Below are positions 26,638 through 35,116 of a DNA stretch of 37,745 nucleotides, piece by piece. Numbering within the stretch: the first letter of the stretch is position 1; each line of letters starts with the position of its first letter. The translations under genes were made by a program, and so were the position numbers. The notes beneath the pieces are model-generated. The model had not been told where the DNA came from. It was given only the letters and a program-made list of their open reading frames with translations, and searched no databases. The DNA lies in contig JAKAZT010000007.1 in NCBI GenBank assembly GCA_021815695.1, positions 1 to 37,745 of the forward strand, given 5' to 3'. The DNA comes from Pseudomonadota bacterium. GTDB taxonomy: Bacteria > Pseudomonadota > Gammaproteobacteria > Xanthomonadales > Rhodanobacteraceae.

Positions 26638-28053
26638 TCAGGCGGGGCGATCAGCATCCAGCAGGATCGGCTCGCCGGCGCCGGGCATCTGCCAGGAAAC
26701 GCCGTCGCGATCGAGCAGCGCCGCGAACGCCTGCATGCCGCGCTCGTAGTCGCCGTGCACGAGAAACACCCGGCGCGGCTCGCCGCAGCGCGCCAGCCAG
26801 GCGCGCAACTGGCTCTGCCCGGCATGCGCCGAGAAGCCATTGATGGTGTGGATCGCGGCCTGCACCTGCACCTCGTCGTTGAACAAGCGCACGCGTCGGG
26901 CGCCGTCGATGATCCGGCGCGCCAGCGTGCCCGCCGCGGCGTAGCCGACGAAGATCACGCTGCTGGCGGGATTCCACAGGTTGTGGCGCAGGTGGTGGCG
27001 CACGCGCCCGCCGGTGCACATGCCGGAACCGGCGAGGATCACCGCGCCGCCGCGGATCGTGTTGATCGCCATCGACTCGGCGGTTTCGCGGGTGAAGCGC
27101 AGTCCCGGCAGATCGAGCGGATGCTCGCGGTCGAACTCGGCGACCGCCGCCGCGCGCAGCGCCTCGGAATGATCGCGGAAGATCTCGGTCGCCGAGATCG
27201 CCATCGGCGAATCGAGGAACACCGGCAGATGCGCCGGCAGCGCACCGCGGGCAATGCCCCGATGCAATGCGTAAAGGATCTCCTGCGCGCGTTCCAGCGC
27301 GAAGGTCGGAATCACCACGTTGCCGCCGCGCCGATGGGTGGCGGCCACGGCCTCGACCAGTTCGGCCACCGAAGCGTCCCAGGGGCGATGGTCGCGGTCG
27401 CCATAGGTAGTCTCCATCACCACGTAGTCCGGCGCGCGCGGCGGCGGTGCGGGGTCGTCCAGCAGTGGCCGGCCGGGATTGCCGAGGTCGCCGGAGAACA
27501 GCACGCTGGTCTGTCTCGCACCATCGTCGATCTCGAGGAACACCGAGGCCGAGCCGAGAATATGCCCTGCGTTGACGAAGGTGGCGTGGCAACCGGGCGC
27601 GACTTCGCGGCGCTCGCCGCAGGCCAGCGACGCATCGAACAGATCCATCACCCGCAGCGCGTCGGTGATGCCGTACAGCGGCACCACCGCCGGCTCGCCG
27701 CTGCGACGGGTGCGGCGCTCGGCGCGCCGCGCGTCCTCTTCCTGCAGGCCGGCGGCATCAAGCAGCACCAGCCGGGCCAGCTCGCGGGTGGCTGCGGTGG
27801 CGACGATGCGACCGCGAAAACCGCGCTTGTAGAGCAGCGGCAGGCGACCGCAGTGATCCAGATGCGCGTGGGTCAGCAGGACCACGTCGATGGTGCTGGC
27901 ATCGAAGCCGAAGTCGGCGGCGTTCTCCTCCCCGAGCTCGCGGCCGCCCTGGAACAGGCCGCAGTCCACGAGCATGCGGGCGCGCTGCGTTTCGACCCGA
28001 TGGCAGGAGCCGGTCACCTGCTTGGCGGCGCCGTGGCTGCTGAAACGGATCAT
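26638..28053 (-). CDS. Beta-CASP metallo-beta-lactamase protein (RNA-processing exonuclease-like)
   Basis: This 471-aa protein resembles the Ysh1/CPSF-73 group of MBL-fold nucleases. The catalytic motif THAHLDH gives H62, H64, D66 and H67; further ligands are in VNAGHILGSA and FSGDLGNPG. Beta-CASP motifs follow: VIPTFALERAQEILY, AGSGMCTGGR and NGFSAHAGQSQL, then a final FLVHGD. Such bacterial proteins are often annotated as RNA-specificity exonucleases; the substrate is not known here. The ATG at 28053 follows GGAGG. It diverges from the usp operon and shares the intergenic region with two ANR/FNR-type boxes. Its position in a low-oxygen module suggests RNA turnover under oxygen limitation, which is inference. 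Confidence 0.88.
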   Translation of the reverse strand: MIRFSSHGAAKQVTGSCHRVETQRARMLVDCGLFQGGRELGEENAADFGFDASTIDVVLLTHAHLDHCGRLPLLYKRGFRGRIVATAATRELARLVLLDAAGLQEEDARRAERRTRRSGEPAVVPLYGITDALRVMDLFDASLACGERREVAPGCHATFVNAGHILGSASVFLEIDDGARQTSVLFSGDLGNPGRPLLDDPAPPPRAPDYVVMETTYGDRDHRPWDASVAELVEAVAATHRRGGNVVIPTFALERAQEILYALHRGIARGALPAHLPVFLDSPMAISATEIFRDHSEALRAAAVAEFDREHPLDLPGLRFTRETAESMAINTIRGGAVILAGSGMCTGGRVRHHLRHNLWNPASSVIFVGYAAAGTLARRIIDGARRVRLFNDEVQVQAAIHTINGFSAHAGQSQLRAWLARCGEPRRVFLVHGDYERGMQAFAALLDRDGVSWQMPGAGEPILLDADRPA

Positions 28054-28112
28054 GCGCGTGCCTCCGCGGCGTCCTTCCCCGGCAAACCTTACATCGCATG
28101 CACCCGCTGCGA

Positions 28113-28126
28113 TTGATCGCGGTCAA
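28113..28126 (-). promoter_or_regulatory. ANR/FNR box 1 (TTGAT-N4-GTCAA)
   Basis: TTGATCGCGGTCAA matches the ANR consensus TTGAT-N4-GTCAA at all fixed positions. Its centre (28119.5) lies about 41 bp from the start point implied by a TAAGGT (28091-28086, minus strand) in front of the beta-CASP gene, the class II activator position. Confidence 0.7.
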
Positions 28127-28180
28127 GACCGGCTGACGCGCCATGGCGCGGGGAACCGGCCGCAACATCGCTGCCGCGTG

Positions 28181-28194
28181 TTGATCCGTGTCAA
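28181..28194 (+). promoter_or_regulatory. ANR/FNR box 2 (TTGAT-N4-GTCAA)
   Basis: TTGATCCGTGTCAA matches the same consensus fully. Its centre (28187.5) would be at -41.5 of a start near 28229; a weak -10-like CACACT is at 28216-28221. It is positioned to activate the usp operon. The two boxes are 68 bp apart, centre to centre. Confidence 0.75.
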
Positions 28195-28285
28195 TGCGGC
28201 CGCGGACAGCGCGCCCACACTGGACGCGTGGACTTGTGCTGCTGCGCGAGTCCGACCCGCTCGCCCAACGGAACGAGGTGCTGCC

Positions 28286-28717
28286 ATGTCCGCCATGCAA
28301 GCCTCCGTCGCACCGATCCTGCTGGCGTTCGACAGCTCCGGACCCGCGCAGCGTGCGTTTGCCTATGCGCTCGACCTGGCGCACCGGACCCGGCGCCCGC
28401 TCCATGCGGTGACCGCGCTCGATTTCGCGCCGGAGTATGCGGCCGGCACCGGCGGCGCCGACGACGCGCTGGTGCGGGAGTCCGAAGACGCGCTCGAACA
28501 GTTGCGTCGACAGGCCGCGACCGCTGGCGTCTCGCTGACTTCGCGGGTCAGGGTCGGGCCGCCGGCGCTGCTGTTGCTGCAGGAATTGCAGGCGGTTGCC
28601 GCGGCGCAGGTCGTCATCGGCCACACCGAAAAGGGCGCGCTGATGCGCTGGCTGGCGGGATCGGTCTCGCGCTCGCTGCTCGATGAGGCGCGCGTGCCGG
28701 TGACCCTGGTGCCCTGA
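28286..28717 (+). CDS. Universal stress protein (UspA family)
   Basis: This 143-aa single-domain Usp has an N-terminal beta-strand (APILLAFDSSGPAQRAFAYALDLAHRTRRPLHAVTAL) and C-terminal VVIGHTEKGALMRWLAGSVSRSLLDEARVPVTLV. Compared with the ATP-binding loop GxxGx9GS, the second glycine is replaced by Glu (GHTEKG), so ATP binding is uncertain. A GAGGTG lies at Shine-Dalgarno distance from the ATG at 28286. It is the first gene of a five-gene operon and follows ANR/FNR box 2; Usp genes are common members of oxygen-limitation regulons. Confidence 0.9.
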   Translation: MSAMQASVAPILLAFDSSGPAQRAFAYALDLAHRTRRPLHAVTALDFAPEYAAGTGGADDALVRESEDALEQLRRQAATAGVSLTSRVRVGPPALLLLQELQAVAAAQVVIGHTEKGALMRWLAGSVSRSLLDEARVPVTLVP

Positions 28718-28775: not shown

Positions 28776-30068
28776 ATGCCGCTGACGATGGATGCCGCCC
28801 TGCCCCCTCTGCTGCTGCAGTTCGCCACTACCGTGGTGCTGAGCTTCGTGCTGGGCCTGGAACTGCACAGCTATCGCCGCTCGCAGGATGCGGGCGTCGG
28901 CTTCGGCACTACGCGTACCCTGACCCTGGTCGGCGCAGCCGGTTTCGTGCTCTGGCTGCTCGACGGCGCGCTGCCGCGCGGACTGTATCTGGCCGGACTG
29001 GCGGCGCTGGCGCTGTGGCTGGCGGTGGATCAGTGGCAAGGCAAGCCGCCAAGCCGCGACGCCGGCGGCGCGTTGCTGCCTGCGCTGATCGCCCTGGTGG
29101 CCTACGCGCTGGGACCGCTGGTCCTGATCGAGCCCGACTGGCTGGTGGCGGCGGTGATGGTGGTGGCCATCCTGATGCTGGGCGAGATGCCGCTGATCCG
29201 GCGCCTTTCGGACGCCTTTCCCAGCACCGAAGGCGTGACCCTGGCGAAGTTCCTGATCATCGCCGGCCTGGTACTGCCGCTGATGCCGGATTCGGCGTTG
29301 CCGGGCCTGCCGACGCTGACTTACCAGAAGGTGTGGCTGGCGGTGGTGGCGATCTCGGGCCTGTCCTATCTTGGCTACGTCGCGCACCGCTACGTCTGGC
29401 CCAAGGCCGGCACCCTGGCCACCGGGCTGATCGGCGGCCTGTACTCGAGCACCGCCGCCAGCGTGGTCCTCGCGCGGCAGGCGCGCGCGGACGCGGACAT
29501 CGCCGCACAGGCACCCGCGGCCGTGGTCCTGGCGACACTGATGATGTACCTGCGTCTGCTGGTGCTGATCGGGGTGCTCGGCCACGCCAGCGCGGCGCAG
29601 GCGCTGGCGCTGCCGTTTGCGTTGCTGGTGCTGGGTTCCGCGCTGGTCGCCGCATGGCTGTGGCGGCGTGGCAGCAGGACGCCCACAGCGCCCGCGGTCA
29701 CGCCGCGGCTCGGCCCGCGCAATCCGCTCGACCTGCCGATCGCCCTGCTGTTTGCCACGCTGTTCGTGGCCTTCGCCGCGATCACCCGGTTCGTCCTCGC
29801 GCACTATGGCGCGGGCGGACTCAAGACCCTGAGCTTCCTGGTCGGCTTCACCGACATCGATCCGTTCATCCTGTCGCTGCTGGCCGATCACGGCGCCATC
29901 AGCCCGACACTGGTCATCGATGCCATTCTGATCGCTTCAGGCAGCAACAACCTGCTCAAGGCCGTCTACGCGCTGGCCCTCTCGCGCCAGCGGGCGATGG
30001 TGCCTGCGGCGATCTGGCTGACCTTCACCCTGCTGCTGTCGCTGGGCTGGGTCGCGTGGATCGCGTGA
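28776..30068 (+). CDS. MgtC/SapB-DUF4010 membrane protein
   Basis: This protein of about 430 aa has roughly a dozen hydrophobic segments. The N-terminal part (residues about 10-130) resembles MgtC/SapB: FATTVVLSFVLGLELHSYRRSQDAGVGFGTTRTLTLVGAAGFVLWLL. The C-terminal part matches DUF4010, with GLIGGLYSSTAASVVLARQA near residue 220 and FTDIDPFILSLLADHGAISPTLVIDAILIASGSNNLLKAVYALALS near the end. Such proteins are thought to affect ion homeostasis, but no activity is proven. ATG 28788 is an alternative start. It lies 58 bp after usp and 13 bp before the proton ATPase. Confidence 0.85.
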   Translation: MPLTMDAALPPLLLQFATTVVLSFVLGLELHSYRRSQDAGVGFGTTRTLTLVGAAGFVLWLLDGALPRGLYLAGLAALALWLAVDQWQGKPPSRDAGGALLPALIALVAYALGPLVLIEPDWLVAAVMVVAILMLGEMPLIRRLSDAFPSTEGVTLAKFLIIAGLVLPLMPDSALPGLPTLTYQKVWLAVVAISGLSYLGYVAHRYVWPKAGTLATGLIGGLYSSTAASVVLARQARADADIAAQAPAAVVLATLMMYLRLLVLIGVLGHASAAQALALPFALLVLGSALVAAWLWRRGSRTPTAPAVTPRLGPRNPLDLPIALLFATLFVAFAAITRFVLAHYGAGGLKTLSFLVGFTDIDPFILSLLADHGAISPTLVIDAILIASGSNNLLKAVYALALSRQRAMVPAAIWLTFTLLLSLGWVAWIA

Positions 30069-30081
30069 GACCGGAGCGCCG

Positions 30082-32439
30082 ATGACGCTGCCGCCTGCCG
30101 CATCCACGGCACCGCCCACCGATCGCGCGCGCGGGCTGAGTAGCGCCGAAGCGCAGCACCGGCTCGCGCAGTACGGGCCCAACGCCATCGCCCCCAAGAC
30201 GCTATCGGTCTGGCGGCAACTCGCGGCCCGGTTCTGGGCGCCGGTGCCGTGGATGCTGGAAGCGGTGATCGTGCTGCAGGTGCTGCTGCAGCGGCGGCTG
30301 GAGGCGCTGGTGATCGCCGTGCTGCTGGTATTCAACGCGATGATGGCCTTCGTGCAGGAACGGCGCGCCACGGACGCACTGGCGCTGCTGCGCCGGCAGT
30401 TGCATGTGAACGCACGCGTGCTGCGCGACGGAAAGTGGAGTCGGGTCCCGGCCGAACAGGTGGTACCGGGCGACATCGTGCACCTGCGCGCGGGCGATCT
30501 GGTGCCGGCGGACCTCACCCTGTTCGACGGCGCCGTGGCGCTGGATCAGGCGGCGCTCACCGGCGAGTCGCTGCCGGTCGACGTCGGGCCCGGCAAACCG
30601 GCCCGAACCGGCGCGGTCGTGCGCCAGGGCGAGGCCAGCGGCGAGGTGACCGCCACCGGCGCGCATACCTTTTTCGGCCGCACGGCGGAACTGGTGCGCA
30701 CATCCGGCGCGCCCAGCCACATGCAGCGCACCATCTTCGCCATCGTCAAACGTCTGGTGATCTTCGACGCCGTGCTGGTCGTGCTGGTGGTGGCCTATGC
30801 TCTGCTGCATCACCTGCCGCTGCTGGAGACGGCCGTATTCGCGCTGATGCTGCTGGTCGCCTCGGTGCCGGTCGCGCTGCCGGCCACCTATACGCTGGCC
30901 ACCGCGGTCAGCAGCCTCGAGCTCGCGCATCAGGGAGTGCTGGTCACGCGCCTGCCCGCGGTGGAAGAAGCTGCCGCGATGGACACCCTGGTGTCGGACA
31001 AGACCGGCACGCTGACACAGAACACGCTGACCCTGGCCGGCACGACCGCGCTCGCGGCGGACACCGACGAAAGCGCCGTGCTGCGCGCAGCCGCTCTGGC
31101 CAGCGACGACGCCACGCAGGACCCGCTCGATCTCGCCATCCTCGGCCCGGCGCGCGAACGCAAGCTGCTGCTCGATGCGCCGCCGCGCCGCGATTTCCAC
31201 CCCTTCGACCCGGCTACCCGCCGTAGCGAGGGCGTGTACAGCGTGGACGGTTGCGCATGGCACGCGGTCAAGGGCGCAGCCAACGTCATTGGCCCGCTGT
31301 GCAAGTTGACTGCCGATCGGCAAGCCGCCCTGGATGCCGCCGAACGCACGCTGGCCGGCAGCGGCGCGCGCGTGCTGGCGGTGGCGGCCGGCCCCGTCGA
31401 TGCGCTGCAACTGCTGGGCGTGGTGGGCCTGTCGGATCCGCCGCGGCCCGACGCAGCCGCACTGATCACCCAACTCGCGCTACTCGGCGTGCGGGTGTGC
31501 ATGGCCACCGGCGACGCGGAGGAAACCGCGCGCGCCATCGGCGCCAGACTGGGCCTGGGTAGCCGCGTGTGCGAAGCGCAGAACGCGGGTGCGCAAAACC
31601 CCGAAGACTGCGACCTTTACGCGCGCGTGCTGCCCGAGGACAAGCACCACATCGTCGCCGCGCTGCAAAAAGCCGGCCACGTCACCGGCATGACCGGCGA
31701 CGGCGTCAATGACGCGCCAGCGCTGCGTCAGGCCGAGCTGGGCATCGCCGTGGCCAGCGCCACCGATGTGGCCAAGGCCGCTGCCGGCGTGGTGCTCACG
31801 GATCCCGGTCTGGGCGGCGTGCTGACCGTGGTGCGCGCCGGGCGCGAGGTGCACCGGCGCATGCTGACCTACACACTCAACAAGATCCTTCGGGTATTCG
31901 AGATCGTCATCTTCCTGACCTTCGGCCTGCTGCTGACGGGCCGTTTCCTGATCTCGCCGCTGCTGATCGTGCTGATGCTGTTCGCCAACGACTTCGCCAC
32001 CATGAGCATCGCCAGTGACCCGGTGCGGCCCGCAGCGCGGCCGCAGCGCTGGCATGTGCGCAAGCTGATCGGCGCGGCAATGGTGCTGGCCGCGCTGTCG
32101 CTCGCGTTCGCGCTGGGCATGTACCTGGGCGCCACGGCCTTCGGCCTGAATGCCGCGCAGCTGCAGACAGTGGTGTTCCTGATCCTGGTATTCAGCAACC
32201 AGACCAGTCTGTACGCCCTGCGCAATGACGACCGTCTGTGGCAGATCGCACCATCGCGCTGGATGGTGCTGGCCAGTCTCGGCGACCTCGCGCTGGTCAG
32301 CGCGCTGGCAGGCGGTGGACTGCTGATGGCCGCGCTGCCGTGGCTCGTGGTGCTGGCGCTGCTGGGTGCGAGCGTCGCCTTCGCGCTGCTGCTGGATCAG
32401 GCCAAGCGTTTCATCTTTCCCCGCTTCGCCATCATCTGA
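30082..32439 (+). CDS. P3A-type (proton-exporting) P-type ATPase
   Basis: This 785-aa inner-membrane pump belongs to the plasma-membrane H+-ATPase group. Features: actuator segment VALDQAALTGESLPVDVG; helix M4 with PVALPAT; phosphorylated D306 in SDKTGTLTQN; hinge MTGDGVNDAPALRQAELGIAVASATDVAKAA; and M6 LMLFANDFATMSIASD, which holds the Asp expected for proton transport in this class. There is no N-terminal metal-binding domain, which argues against heavy-metal pumps. The enzyme would use ATP to export protons. It lies 13 bp after the DUF4010 gene, with GGAG before the ATG, and 26 bp before the MaoC-Pta gene, so it is in the acetate-forming operon. Confidence 0.92.
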   Translation: MTLPPAASTAPPTDRARGLSSAEAQHRLAQYGPNAIAPKTLSVWRQLAARFWAPVPWMLEAVIVLQVLLQRRLEALVIAVLLVFNAMMAFVQERRATDALALLRRQLHVNARVLRDGKWSRVPAEQVVPGDIVHLRAGDLVPADLTLFDGAVALDQAALTGESLPVDVGPGKPARTGAVVRQGEASGEVTATGAHTFFGRTAELVRTSGAPSHMQRTIFAIVKRLVIFDAVLVVLVVAYALLHHLPLLETAVFALMLLVASVPVALPATYTLATAVSSLELAHQGVLVTRLPAVEEAAAMDTLVSDKTGTLTQNTLTLAGTTALAADTDESAVLRAAALASDDATQDPLDLAILGPARERKLLLDAPPRRDFHPFDPATRRSEGVYSVDGCAWHAVKGAANVIGPLCKLTADRQAALDAAERTLAGSGARVLAVAAGPVDALQLLGVVGLSDPPRPDAAALITQLALLGVRVCMATGDAEETARAIGARLGLGSRVCEAQNAGAQNPEDCDLYARVLPEDKHHIVAALQKAGHVTGMTGDGVNDAPALRQAELGIAVASATDVAKAAAGVVLTDPGLGGVLTVVRAGREVHRRMLTYTLNKILRVFEIVIFLTFGLLLTGRFLISPLLIVLMLFANDFATMSIASDPVRPAARPQRWHVRKLIGAAMVLAALSLAFALGMYLGATAFGLNAAQLQTVVFLILVFSNQTSLYALRNDDRLWQIAPSRWMVLASLGDLALVSALAGGGLLMAALPWLVVLALLGASVAFALLLDQAKRFIFPRFAII

Positions 32440-32465: not shown

Positions 32466-33926
32466 ATGTCCGATTCGATCGAGAACCGCCCGCTGAGTGA
32501 ACTGAAGGTGGGCGACAGCGCCAGCCTCACACGCAACTTCACCCAGGACGACGTGCAGATCTTCGCGCTGATGTCGGGTGACATGAATCCCGCGCATGTG
32601 GACGCCGAGTTCGCCGCCAGCGACCCGTTCCACAAGGTGGTGGCGCACGGCATGTGGACCGGCGCACTGATCTCCACCGTGCTGGGCACCCGACTGCCCG
32701 GACCGGGCACGGTGTATCTGAGTCAGAACCTGCAGTTCCGCAAGCCGGTGTTTCTCGGCGACACGGTGCGCGTCAGCGTGACCGTGGCCGCGATCGACAG
32801 CACTGCCGGCCACGCACCGCGCGCCACGCTGCGCTGCACCGTGGTCAACCAGCGCAACGAAACCGTGGTGGAAGGCGACGCGCTGGTACTGGTGCCCACC
32901 GACAAGATCAGCCGTCCGCGCATGCACCTGCCCAGACTGGAGCTGCGCGACCCCGGCGTAAAGCTGCGCGCGCTGATCGCGCAGGCGCAGGCCGCGTGCA
33001 AGGGTCAGCCGCCGTTGTCGATGGCCGTGGTGCACGCGGTGGATGCCGTCTCGCTGGGCGGCGCGGTGGATGCGGCGCAGGCCGGACTGATCGCACCCGT
33101 CTTCGTCGGTCCCGAGGCCAGGATCCGCGCTGCCGCGCAGGCCGCGGGCATCGATCTTTCGCCCTATCCGCTGGTCGCCACCGAGCACAGCCACGCCGCT
33201 GCCGAGACAGCGGTGGCGATGGCGTGCGCCGGCCAGGTGCGGGCGCTGATGAAGGGCTCGCTGCACACCGACGAGCTGATGCACGCCGTGGTCGCTGCAC
33301 AAAGCGGCCTGCGCACCGCGCGGCGCATCAGCCACGTTTTCGTGATCGACGCGGTGGGCCAATCACGCCTGCAACTGCTGACCGATGCGGCGGTGAACGT
33401 CACGCCGGATCTGGAGGCCAAGCGCGACATCGTGCAGAACGCGATCGATCTCGCGCAGGTGCTGGGCATCGCCCGGCCGAAAGTGGCCATTCTGGCCGCG
33501 GTCGAGACAGTCAGCTCCAGGATTCCCTCGACACTGGATGCCGCCGCGCTGTGCAAGATGGCCGATCGCGGCCAGATCAGCGGCGGCCTGCTCGATGGCC
33601 CGCTGGCTTTCGACACCGCGGTATCGCTGCGCGCGGCGCAGACCAAGGGCATCGTCTCGCCGGTGGCGGGAATGGCCGACATCCTGGTCGCACCGGATCT
33701 GGAGGCCGGCAACATGCTGGCCAAGCAGCTCGAATACCTGGCCGAGGCTACCATCGCCGGGATCGTGCTCGGCGCGCGCGTGCCGGTGGTGCTGACCAGC
33801 CGCGCCGACCTGCCGGACGCACGGCTGGCTTCGTGCGCGCTTGCCGTGCTGTGCATGGCGGCGGTGCCGGCGCGTCTTGCATCCGCATCCGCGAGCGCCG
33901 GTACCGACAACCCGCCGCCGCGATGA
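32466..33926 (+). CDS. Bifunctional MaoC-like hydratase / phosphate acetyltransferase
   Basis: This 486-aa fusion has an N-terminal MaoC (R-specific enoyl-CoA hydratase-like) domain, residues about 10-145. The catalytic-type motif is ALMSGDMNPAHVDAEF (D39, N41 and H44), followed by HGMWTGALISTVLGTRLPGPG. The C-terminal part (about 180-465) is a Pta/Ptb-type acyltransferase with LMKGSLHTDELMHAVV, LLTDAAVNVTPDLEAKRDIVQNA and GPLAFDTAVS. It would convert acyl-CoA plus phosphate to acyl phosphate; coupled to acetate kinase, this makes ATP. Known fusions of this design accompany AckA in low-oxygen clusters. Its stop overlaps the ackA start (ATGA). Confidence 0.92.
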   Translation: MSDSIENRPLSELKVGDSASLTRNFTQDDVQIFALMSGDMNPAHVDAEFAASDPFHKVVAHGMWTGALISTVLGTRLPGPGTVYLSQNLQFRKPVFLGDTVRVSVTVAAIDSTAGHAPRATLRCTVVNQRNETVVEGDALVLVPTDKISRPRMHLPRLELRDPGVKLRALIAQAQAACKGQPPLSMAVVHAVDAVSLGGAVDAAQAGLIAPVFVGPEARIRAAAQAAGIDLSPYPLVATEHSHAAAETAVAMACAGQVRALMKGSLHTDELMHAVVAAQSGLRTARRISHVFVIDAVGQSRLQLLTDAAVNVTPDLEAKRDIVQNAIDLAQVLGIARPKVAILAAVETVSSRIPSTLDAAALCKMADRGQISGGLLDGPLAFDTAVSLRAAQTKGIVSPVAGMADILVAPDLEAGNMLAKQLEYLAEATIAGIVLGARVPVVLTSRADLPDARLASCALAVLCMAAVPARLASASASAGTDNPPPR

Positions 33927-35116
33927 CTGCGACCCGCTTGCTGGCACTCAACGCCGGGTCGTCCAGCCTGAAGTTCGCGCTGTTCGACGCCGAGACGGCA
34001 AGGCATTCCGCCGACCTGCCGGCGGCCCTGCTGCGCGGAGAGATCGACGCACCCAACGGCGTGCCCGTGCTCACCTTCACCCGTGCCGGCGGGCCGTCGC
34101 AAACGCAGAAATCCGACGTGGTGCGCGGCGATATCGGCGCCGAGATAGCCTGGCTGATCGACTGGCTGGCGCGCGAGCACAGGGCGCCCGCGCCCACCGT
34201 GGTCGCGCACCGCATCGTGCACGGCGGCCTGCACTACATCGAAGCGACGCGCATCGTGCCTGCAGTACTCGATGATCTCTCGGCGCTGACCCGACTCGCG
34301 CCGCTGCATCAGGGCCCGGGCCTGGCCGGCGTGCGCGCGGCGCAATCCGCCCTGCCGCAAGCGGCACAGGTAGCCTGTTTCGATACCGCGTTTCACGCAA
34401 GCCACAGCGATACCGAACGCCGCTATGCCATTCCCCGCGTGTGGCACGAGCTCGGCTACCAGCGCTACGGCTTCCACGGGCTCTCGTTCGATGCGATCAG
34501 CCGGCGCTTGCCCGCGCTGCTGGGCGCGCGTGCGCATGGCGCGGTGCTGGTCGCACATCTGGGCAGCGGCGCCAGCCTGTGCGGCCTGCGCGAGCTCAAG
34601 AGCATCACCACGACCATGGGCTTCACCGCGCTGGACGGTCTGGTGATGGCCACGCGTTGCGGCGCGCTCGATCCCGGCCTCGTGCTGCAATGGTTTCAGC
34701 ATGATGGCCTGCAACCCGACGCGGTCAGCGATCTGCTCTACCGCCACAGCGGTCTGCTCGGTGTATCGGAGATCAGCGCCGATACGCGCGACCTGCTCGA
34801 CAAGCCGGACCCGCGCGCCCGACAGGCGATCGCCGTATTCGTGGCCGCCATCGTGCGCCAGATCGGCGCGGTCGCCGCCGCGATCGGCGGTCTGGATGCC
34901 CTGGTGTTCACCGGCGGCATCGGCACGCATCAGCCCGCGATCCGCACCCTGGTGATCGAACGTCTGGACTGGCTCGGCCTCGCGCTCGATGCCGAGGCCA
35001 ATGCCGCAGGGCTTCCGCAGATCGCGGCCAGCGCCAGCCGCATCCCGATCCTCTGCCTGCCCACCGACGAGGAAGCGGTGATGGCGGCGCAGGCGGCTGC
35101 CATGTCCGCACCCTGA
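33923..35116 (+). CDS. ackA: Acetate kinase
   Basis: This 397-aa enzyme of the acetokinase family interconverts acetyl phosphate plus ADP with acetate plus ATP. Family motifs: LALNAGSSSLKFALFD at the N-terminus, VVAHRIVHGG, QVACFDTAFHAS, RYGFHGLSFDAISRRLP, AHLGSGASLCGL, TMGFTALDGLVMATRCG, FTGGIG (usually followed by EN, here by TH) and LPTDEEAVMA at the end. It overlaps the MaoC-Pta gene by four bases, so the pair is translationally coupled and forms the Pta-AckA pathway. It ends the operon. Confidence 0.95.
   Translation: MTATRLLALNAGSSSLKFALFDAETARHSADLPAALLRGEIDAPNGVPVLTFTRAGGPSQTQKSDVVRGDIGAEIAWLIDWLAREHRAPAPTVVAHRIVHGGLHYIEATRIVPAVLDDLSALTRLAPLHQGPGLAGVRAAQSALPQAAQVACFDTAFHASHSDTERRYAIPRVWHELGYQRYGFHGLSFDAISRRLPALLGARAHGAVLVAHLGSGASLCGLRELKSITTTMGFTALDGLVMATRCGALDPGLVLQWFQHDGLQPDAVSDLLYRHSGLLGVSEISADTRDLLDKPDPRARQAIAVFVAAIVRQIGAVAAAIGGLDALVFTGGIGTHQPAIRTLVIERLDWLGLALDAEANAAGLPQIAASASRIPILCLPTDEEAVMAAQAAAMSAP

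Follow-up and report, generated by a model that had tools for sequence, protein, structure and literature searches.

Two sets of genes point away from each other across a gap of 232 bp in the window, by which we mean the whole stretch of 37,745 bases analysed here. How are they controlled, and does one oxygen-responsive regulator turn on both arms, as the preliminary description had proposed? The gap (28054-28285) is the entire space between the start of a beta-CASP gene on the minus strand (28053) and the ATG of usp on the plus strand (28286). The leftward gene (26638..28053, minus strand) encodes a 471-aa, RNase-like beta-CASP/RMMBL protein of the metallo-beta-lactamase (MBL) fold (Pfam Beta-Casp 2.8e-38, RMMBL 1.2e-14, Lactamase_B 8.5e-14). 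By sequence match, its best solved relative is the ribonuclease TTHA0252 (2dkf, 1.5e-88); searched against NCBIfam, it matched no model above that model's cut-off. The rightward set starts with usp, for a universal stress protein of 143 aa (28286..28717, plus strand; Pfam Usp 4.8e-22), followed on the same strand by genes for a DUF4010 protein (28776..30068; Pfam DUF4010 1.3e-52), a P-type cation ATPase of the proton-efflux (IIIA) type (30082..32439; Pfam E1-E2_ATPase; TIGR01647, 630.1 bits vs a cut-off of 615.5), a MaoC-like/phosphate acetyltransferase fusion (32487..33926; assigned by Pfam; NF006045, 671 bits vs a cut-off of 282) and an acetate/propionate kinase (33926..35116; Pfam Acetate_kinase 1.2e-89; TIGR00016, 298.9 vs a cut-off of 293.4). 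Judged from spacing and strand alone, the genes from usp to the acetate kinase gene may be carried on one transcript.

The gap contains two boxes of the FNR/ANR type. The one on the beta-CASP arm (28113..28126, minus strand; TTGATCGCGGTCAA, which reads TTGACCGCGATCAA toward the gene) lies at -73, and the one on the usp arm (28181..28194, plus strand) is TTGATCCGTGTCAA. That every fixed base is matched in both had been noted before, and a pattern search confirmed it: the two 14-mers agree with TTGAYN4RTCAA at 10/10 fixed positions, with intact half-sites. In the whole window, TTGATN4GTCAA was found at these two places only, and 100 dinucleotide-preserving shuffles of the window gave a mean of 0.00. 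When one mismatch was tolerated, no further site appeared across the window (shuffles, mean 0.46). Sites for CRP/Clp have the consensus TGTGA-N6-TCACA; compared with it, a reading of the boxes as CRP/Clp sites was rejected on sequence.

The assembly that holds the window comprises 2.18 Mb in 188 contigs and is 87.9% complete. Counted by a fixed-base pattern search rather than with a weight matrix, TTGAYN4RTCAA occurs in it 5 times vs once for the reversed control pattern, and the divergent pair makes up two of these five perfect sites. One of the others, on contig C86 (L004), lies inside an ORF, and another, on C48 (L003), is 8 bases before the start codon of an ORF that we named short-chain-dehydrogenase-like from reading it. 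A further perfect site, TTGATCCAGATCAA (L005:1501-1514; G000:C185:20925-20938), precedes a c-type-cytochrome-like ORF by about 100 bp; a second cytochrome-like ORF lies further upstream on the same strand as the first. The site on C185 is a plausible further target of FNR.

Each box in the gap is accompanied by a -10-like hexamer at a distance of 21 bp. On the beta-CASP arm, it is TAAGGT (28086..28091, minus strand), with a predicted start at about 28079; on the usp arm, it is CACACT (28216..28221, plus strand), with a predicted start at about 28228. Both hexamers are weak matches to TATAAT. With the hexamer set at -12 to -7, the box centres come to lie near -40.5 relative to these predicted starts, so that both sites are at the class II position (near -41.5) as far as the predictions hold. 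The preliminary description had placed each box about 41 bp from a plausible, opposite-facing start, and the hexamer-based predictions (28079 and 28228) reproduced its start points to within about 1 base. A generic sigma-70 promoter scan of the gap returned no promoter and no terminator. Such an outcome is compatible with a promoter that needs an activator and has no -35 element, but it does not count as evidence of one.

We then compared the locus with its close relatives. A scan of genome contigs with the beta-CASP protein yielded 26 loci, and L011, L012, L013 and L014 showed more than 90% identity. L013, whose contig begins 48 bases upstream, was left out, and duplicates were counted once (the window as L001/L002/L037, L011 as L038/L067, L012 as L039/L068 and L014 as L040/L069). 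Where the gene order is kept, the boxes are conserved: L012/L068, the sole other locus found with usp and the beta-CASP gene adjacent, retains this order and both boxes, at -142 and -73. In L011/L067, usp is gone and a DUF4010 remnant stands in its place; there the usp-side box is absent and the box at -73 is kept. In L014/L069, genes of the thymidine phosphorylase family and for PRPP synthase have been inserted between usp and the beta-CASP gene (L014:3540-6004; above the cut-offs of NF003338 and NF005537), and both boxes lie at the new divergent junction, the interval separating usp from the phosphorylase gene. Against the AMP-phosphorylase model, this phosphorylase scored 438.4, below the cut-off of 535. 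Among the other 22 of the 26 loci, one has a perfect box within 700 bp upstream, namely L034 (Aestuariibacter, 41% identity), at -92.

The hexamers follow the boxes. TAAGGT is present at 21 bp in the window, L011/L067 and L012/L068, and TAACGT occurs at the same spacing in L014/L069, where the hexamer spacing is kept on that arm although the gene behind it differs. CACACT is found at 21 bp in all three loci with usp (the window, L012/L068 and L014/L069). These observations bear on a reading in which a single box activates transcription and the other is a leftover, or an accessory or repressor site for the opposite arm. In the three loci with two boxes, the distance between box starts is only 68, 69 and 71 bp, which also puts each box about 109 bp upstream of the opposite arm's predicted start, an arrangement in which such a role could be imagined. 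Each box, however, has a separate conserved -10-like hexamer 21 bp away, and the presence or loss of each box goes with that of the arm it faces; we therefore think it quite unlikely that only one box activates. Apparently, one activating site would serve each arm.

How widely is the box associated with this gene? A beta-CASP homologue was detected at 1e-60 in 95 of the 148 genomes searched, and 37 loci with 57-100% identity (the window and L067-L102) were taken as orthologues. In 10/37 of them, the beta-CASP start has a perfect box no more than 160 bp away, compared with 0.028 expected from the genome-wide site density; the loci are related and not independent, so that the P value of this comparison serves as a guide only. 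A perfect box before the gene, or before a same-strand gene leading into it, was assigned by eye in 24/37, under a loose criterion: extra same-strand ORFs lie upstream of the box in L070, L073, L074, L076, L085, L090, L100 and L101, and the box overlaps a mechanically called ORF in L071, L089 and L099. No perfect box precedes the gene or operon in 13/37 (L072, L075, L079, L086, L087, L088, L091, L092 and L094-L098); L079, L086 and L087 have 9/10 sites upstream, and the box-free loci include every genome of the genera g4 and g14 in the set (four each), despite the FNR homologues there. Pooled over all 37 genomes, the pattern occurs 695 times vs 88 for the reversed pattern (the latter summed by hand).

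The spacing between box and hexamer was examined over the same orthologues. Toward the gene, 18 of 24 boxes carry A2 and T6 of a -10 hexamer at 21 or 22 bp, the values for comparison being 1.08 on average and 4 at most. Because these 24 had been picked by eye with their flanks already seen, the test was redone on 38 boxes, which are all the perfect ones located 20-5,100 bp ahead of the 37 orthologous genes, taken without choice. In 32/38, A2 and T6 are present at 21 or 22 bp on one or both sides, and the 26 other spacing pairs over the same 38 boxes gave 1 to 9.

Beyond the orthologues, the association becomes rare. Within about 600 bp upstream, a perfect box was found in 0/40 more distant homologues (41-50% identity) and in none of four further distant homologues (L103-L106); these 44 are the ones inspected of 74 lower-identity beta-CASP matches (our own count). 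A homologue was also present in 188 plasmid records, 19 of which, picked for genus diversity, were inspected. In three of the 19, a perfect box precedes the homologue by no more than 130 bp (Rhizobium L139, Sinorhizobium L140 and Cupriavidus L141), and two more have one before an adjoining operon (L192, before ppsA-MBL; L189, before phosphorylase genes). The other 14/19 show neither placement; among them, L138 and L191 carry a perfect box at a greater distance upstream, and L187 has a 9/10 site 93 bp before its phosphorylase gene. In L034, L139, L140 and L141, the box is within 130 bp, and A2 and T6 occur at 21 or 22 bp in all four. The phosphorylase/PRPP synthase/beta-CASP trio recurs in Thiomonas-type loci and on several alpha- and betaproteobacterial plasmids. 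Thiomonas-type loci contain no perfect box anywhere, and in L020 a 9/10 site precedes the phosphorylase match by about 190 bp.

Could the boxes in the window be chance palindromes, or an inverted repeat with no regulatory role? Such 14-mers do arise by chance, as the single reversed match in the genome indicates, and of the five perfect sites, two appear to be incidental. Against this stand the conservation of the boxes across genera, their absence upstream of all 40 more distant homologues and the sharp spacing of 21-22 bp, in view of which we regard a chance or non-regulatory origin as extremely improbable. The boxes are much better read as regulatory sites, and the question becomes which protein would bind them.

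In a whole-genome search for the Crp-like helix-turn-helix family, two proteins, L006 and L007, scored above the cut-off. L006 is a 288-aa ORF on contig C91 with CSTCAFSGAC (C-x2-C-x5-C), a later Cys in YPCDAV and a helix AETVSR. By reference to E. coli FNR, we take the four cysteines to be those of the cluster and the helix to carry the recognition residues of the FNR type. The NCBIfam Fnr model is the best match of L006, at 185.4 bits, below the cut-off of 228. L007 is without the cysteine cluster and looks like the Clp/CRP protein of Xanthomonas. A homologue of L006 was found at 1e-40 in 102/148 genomes, and an FNR match of at least 60% identity in 28/37 orthologue genomes (our own count); G022 and G057 have boxes at the locus but no FNR match at 1e-40. 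The cysteine triplet is present in 23/25 distinct L006 homologues inspected.

Three side observations concern FNR-family genes in relatives. In two relatives of the same genus (L111 and L118), Ser replaces the third N-terminal cluster Cys of the FNR homologue. In L051, L052 and L055, the beta-CASP gene is followed within about 0.6 kb by an FNR gene (71% identity) encoded on the other strand. In another relative, 19 of its 38 perfect FNR boxes fall within about 47 kb of one contig (G068:C60:11074-58277; L135-L137); a distant FNR-family gene lies inside this cluster, and a search there for the other module genes found none.

The boxes might also be read mainly by a regulator other than L006, namely an NO-responsive DNR/NNR-type protein or a second FNR paralogue. 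NO-responsive DNR-type proteins recognise the same box, second FNR-family proteins exist in relatives (57% in G007, 58% in G009 and 45-48% in others), and with the assembly 87.9% complete, one could be missing from it; L006 itself falls below the NCBIfam Fnr cut-off. On the other side, of the two family proteins in the genome, L006 is the only one that is FNR-like and has the cysteines, the other looking like Clp/CRP, and five homologues of the second type (L127-L131) also bear the N-terminal cysteine triplet. Control mainly by such a different regulator is thus unlikely in our view, and L006 stands as the candidate.

Taken together, we consider it highly probable that each arm is transcribed from an FNR-dependent class II promoter of its own and that the 232-bp gap forms a divergent promoter region holding both. 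This interpretation is well supported because the boxes, the spacing and the hexamers are kept in relatives, and the proposal that a single oxygen-responsive regulator turns on both arms gains support from the comparison of relatives and from the FNR-like protein of the genome. At low oxygen, an FNR/ANR-type protein with a 4Fe-4S cluster would dimerise, and the dimer would bind each box about 41 bp upstream of the start and recruit RNA polymerase to the weak -10. Transcription of one arm would then give the beta-CASP RNase-like enzyme, and that of the other the universal stress protein, probably along with the products of the ion-transport and acetyl-phosphate/acetate kinase genes downstream. 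Both gene sets would probably be switched on together when oxygen runs out, as the architecture of the sites in three loci suggests.

These findings add a well-supported candidate member of the FNR regulon for an uncultured lineage near Lysobacteraceae. An FNR-type box recurs before the beta-CASP RNase gene in 24/37 orthologues, in a few distant homologues (L034, L139-L141) and in 0/40 more distant homologues sampled from relatives. Should production of the RNase be specific to low oxygen, the survival of these bacteria under anoxia may involve RNA turnover. The more interesting point is the role of an apparently oxygen-controlled beta-CASP RNase and of its nucleotide-salvage neighbours.

The gene neighbourhood allows a further, speculative reading, in which the FNR-controlled set would be part of a low-oxygen pathway for RNA salvage. 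The beta-CASP RNase would degrade RNA to nucleotides; the phosphorylase/PRPP synthase pair, found beside the beta-CASP gene in relatives, would free pentose phosphates; phosphotransacetylase and acetate kinase, joined in some relatives by phosphoketolase, would turn these into acetate and ATP; and the stress protein and the proton ATPase would help the cell to wait. A gene of the thymidine phosphorylase family is found near the MBL gene in 6/15 annotated plasmid loci, and one locus has phosphoketolase and acetate kinase genes adjoining it. In Bradyrhizobium, deletion of fixK2 lowers the expression of the trio as well as that of a phosphoketolase-acetate kinase pair (PMC9104804). Against it, a search of the window's own genome (G000), an incomplete assembly, detected no phosphorylase gene, and the L014 phosphorylase falls below the cut-off of the AMP-phosphorylase model. 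We hold this pathway to be rather improbable.

How does the locus compare with known systems? TTHA0252 of Thermus (PDB 2dkf) matches the beta-CASP protein over residues 4-453 of 471 (E 1.5e-88), and we know of no oxygen link for it. In Herbaspirillum seropedicae, the site of fnr1 is centred at -42, and two usp genes are Fnr-activated (PMC5934665). The promoters proposed here resemble the class II promoter of fnr1 in the kind of box, in its similar position relative to the start and in having one box per start; unlike fnr1, the starts here are predicted, and the two promoters face away from each other.

A second comparison is with the low-oxygen-activated lxa locus of Burkholderia cenocepacia and B. 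contaminans (BCAM0275A-BCAM0323; PMC4981469, with further descriptions in PMC6127331 and PMC3759415), which is also expressed aerobically in B. contaminans (PMC4981469). The likeness is one of product names: the list in PMC4981469 includes usp, the acetate kinase BCAM0293, the phosphate acetyl/butyryl transferase BCAM0298, the metallo-beta-lactamase superfamily protein BCAM0300, the cation-transporting ATPase BCAM0318 and CRP-family regulators. As in that list, a cluster of usp, ackA, pta, MBL and cation ATPase genes is present in the window by family assignment. Unlike in lxa, the module here consists of six genes in another order, and the FNR-like gene is on another contig, not inside.

The third system is that of Bradyrhizobium, whose FixK2 is not an Fe-S FNR. 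In B. diazoefficiens, bll3117-bll3116-bll3115 encode a thymidine phosphorylase family protein, a ribose-phosphate pyrophosphokinase and an MBL fold metallo-hydrolase (PMC9104804 Table 2). According to the same source, bll3117 is down 6.6-fold and bll3115 30.6-fold in the fixK2 deletion, and the phosphoketolase-acetate kinase pair bll2518-bll2517 about 10-fold. The predicted box of the bll3117 operon, at -74 (PMC9104804), agrees with 9/10 of the fixed positions used here. In Table 2 of PMC6515984, the three proteins are microoxia-induced, but they carry a '-' in the FixK2-target column. The trio shares its three product names and their order with L014, and the window itself has the MBL gene only; a three-gene operon behind one FNR-type box is found in L014 and not in the window. 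A homologue from B. septentrionale, where the gene order is the same, matches at 44.8%, and the likeness to bll3115 and BCAM0300 is by product name.

A literature search that joined the names of the three gene products with Fnr returned nothing at the thresholds set; a link between such an MBL protein and FNR-type control is nevertheless already in print, in the tables cited above. Bradyrhizobium, which has an operon of like-named products already known to depend on FixK2, offers a system for a direct test. Set beside these examples, the arrangement in the window is very probably a well-known kind of switch, an FNR-family divergent promoter with a class II site per arm, placed on a little-understood set of genes.
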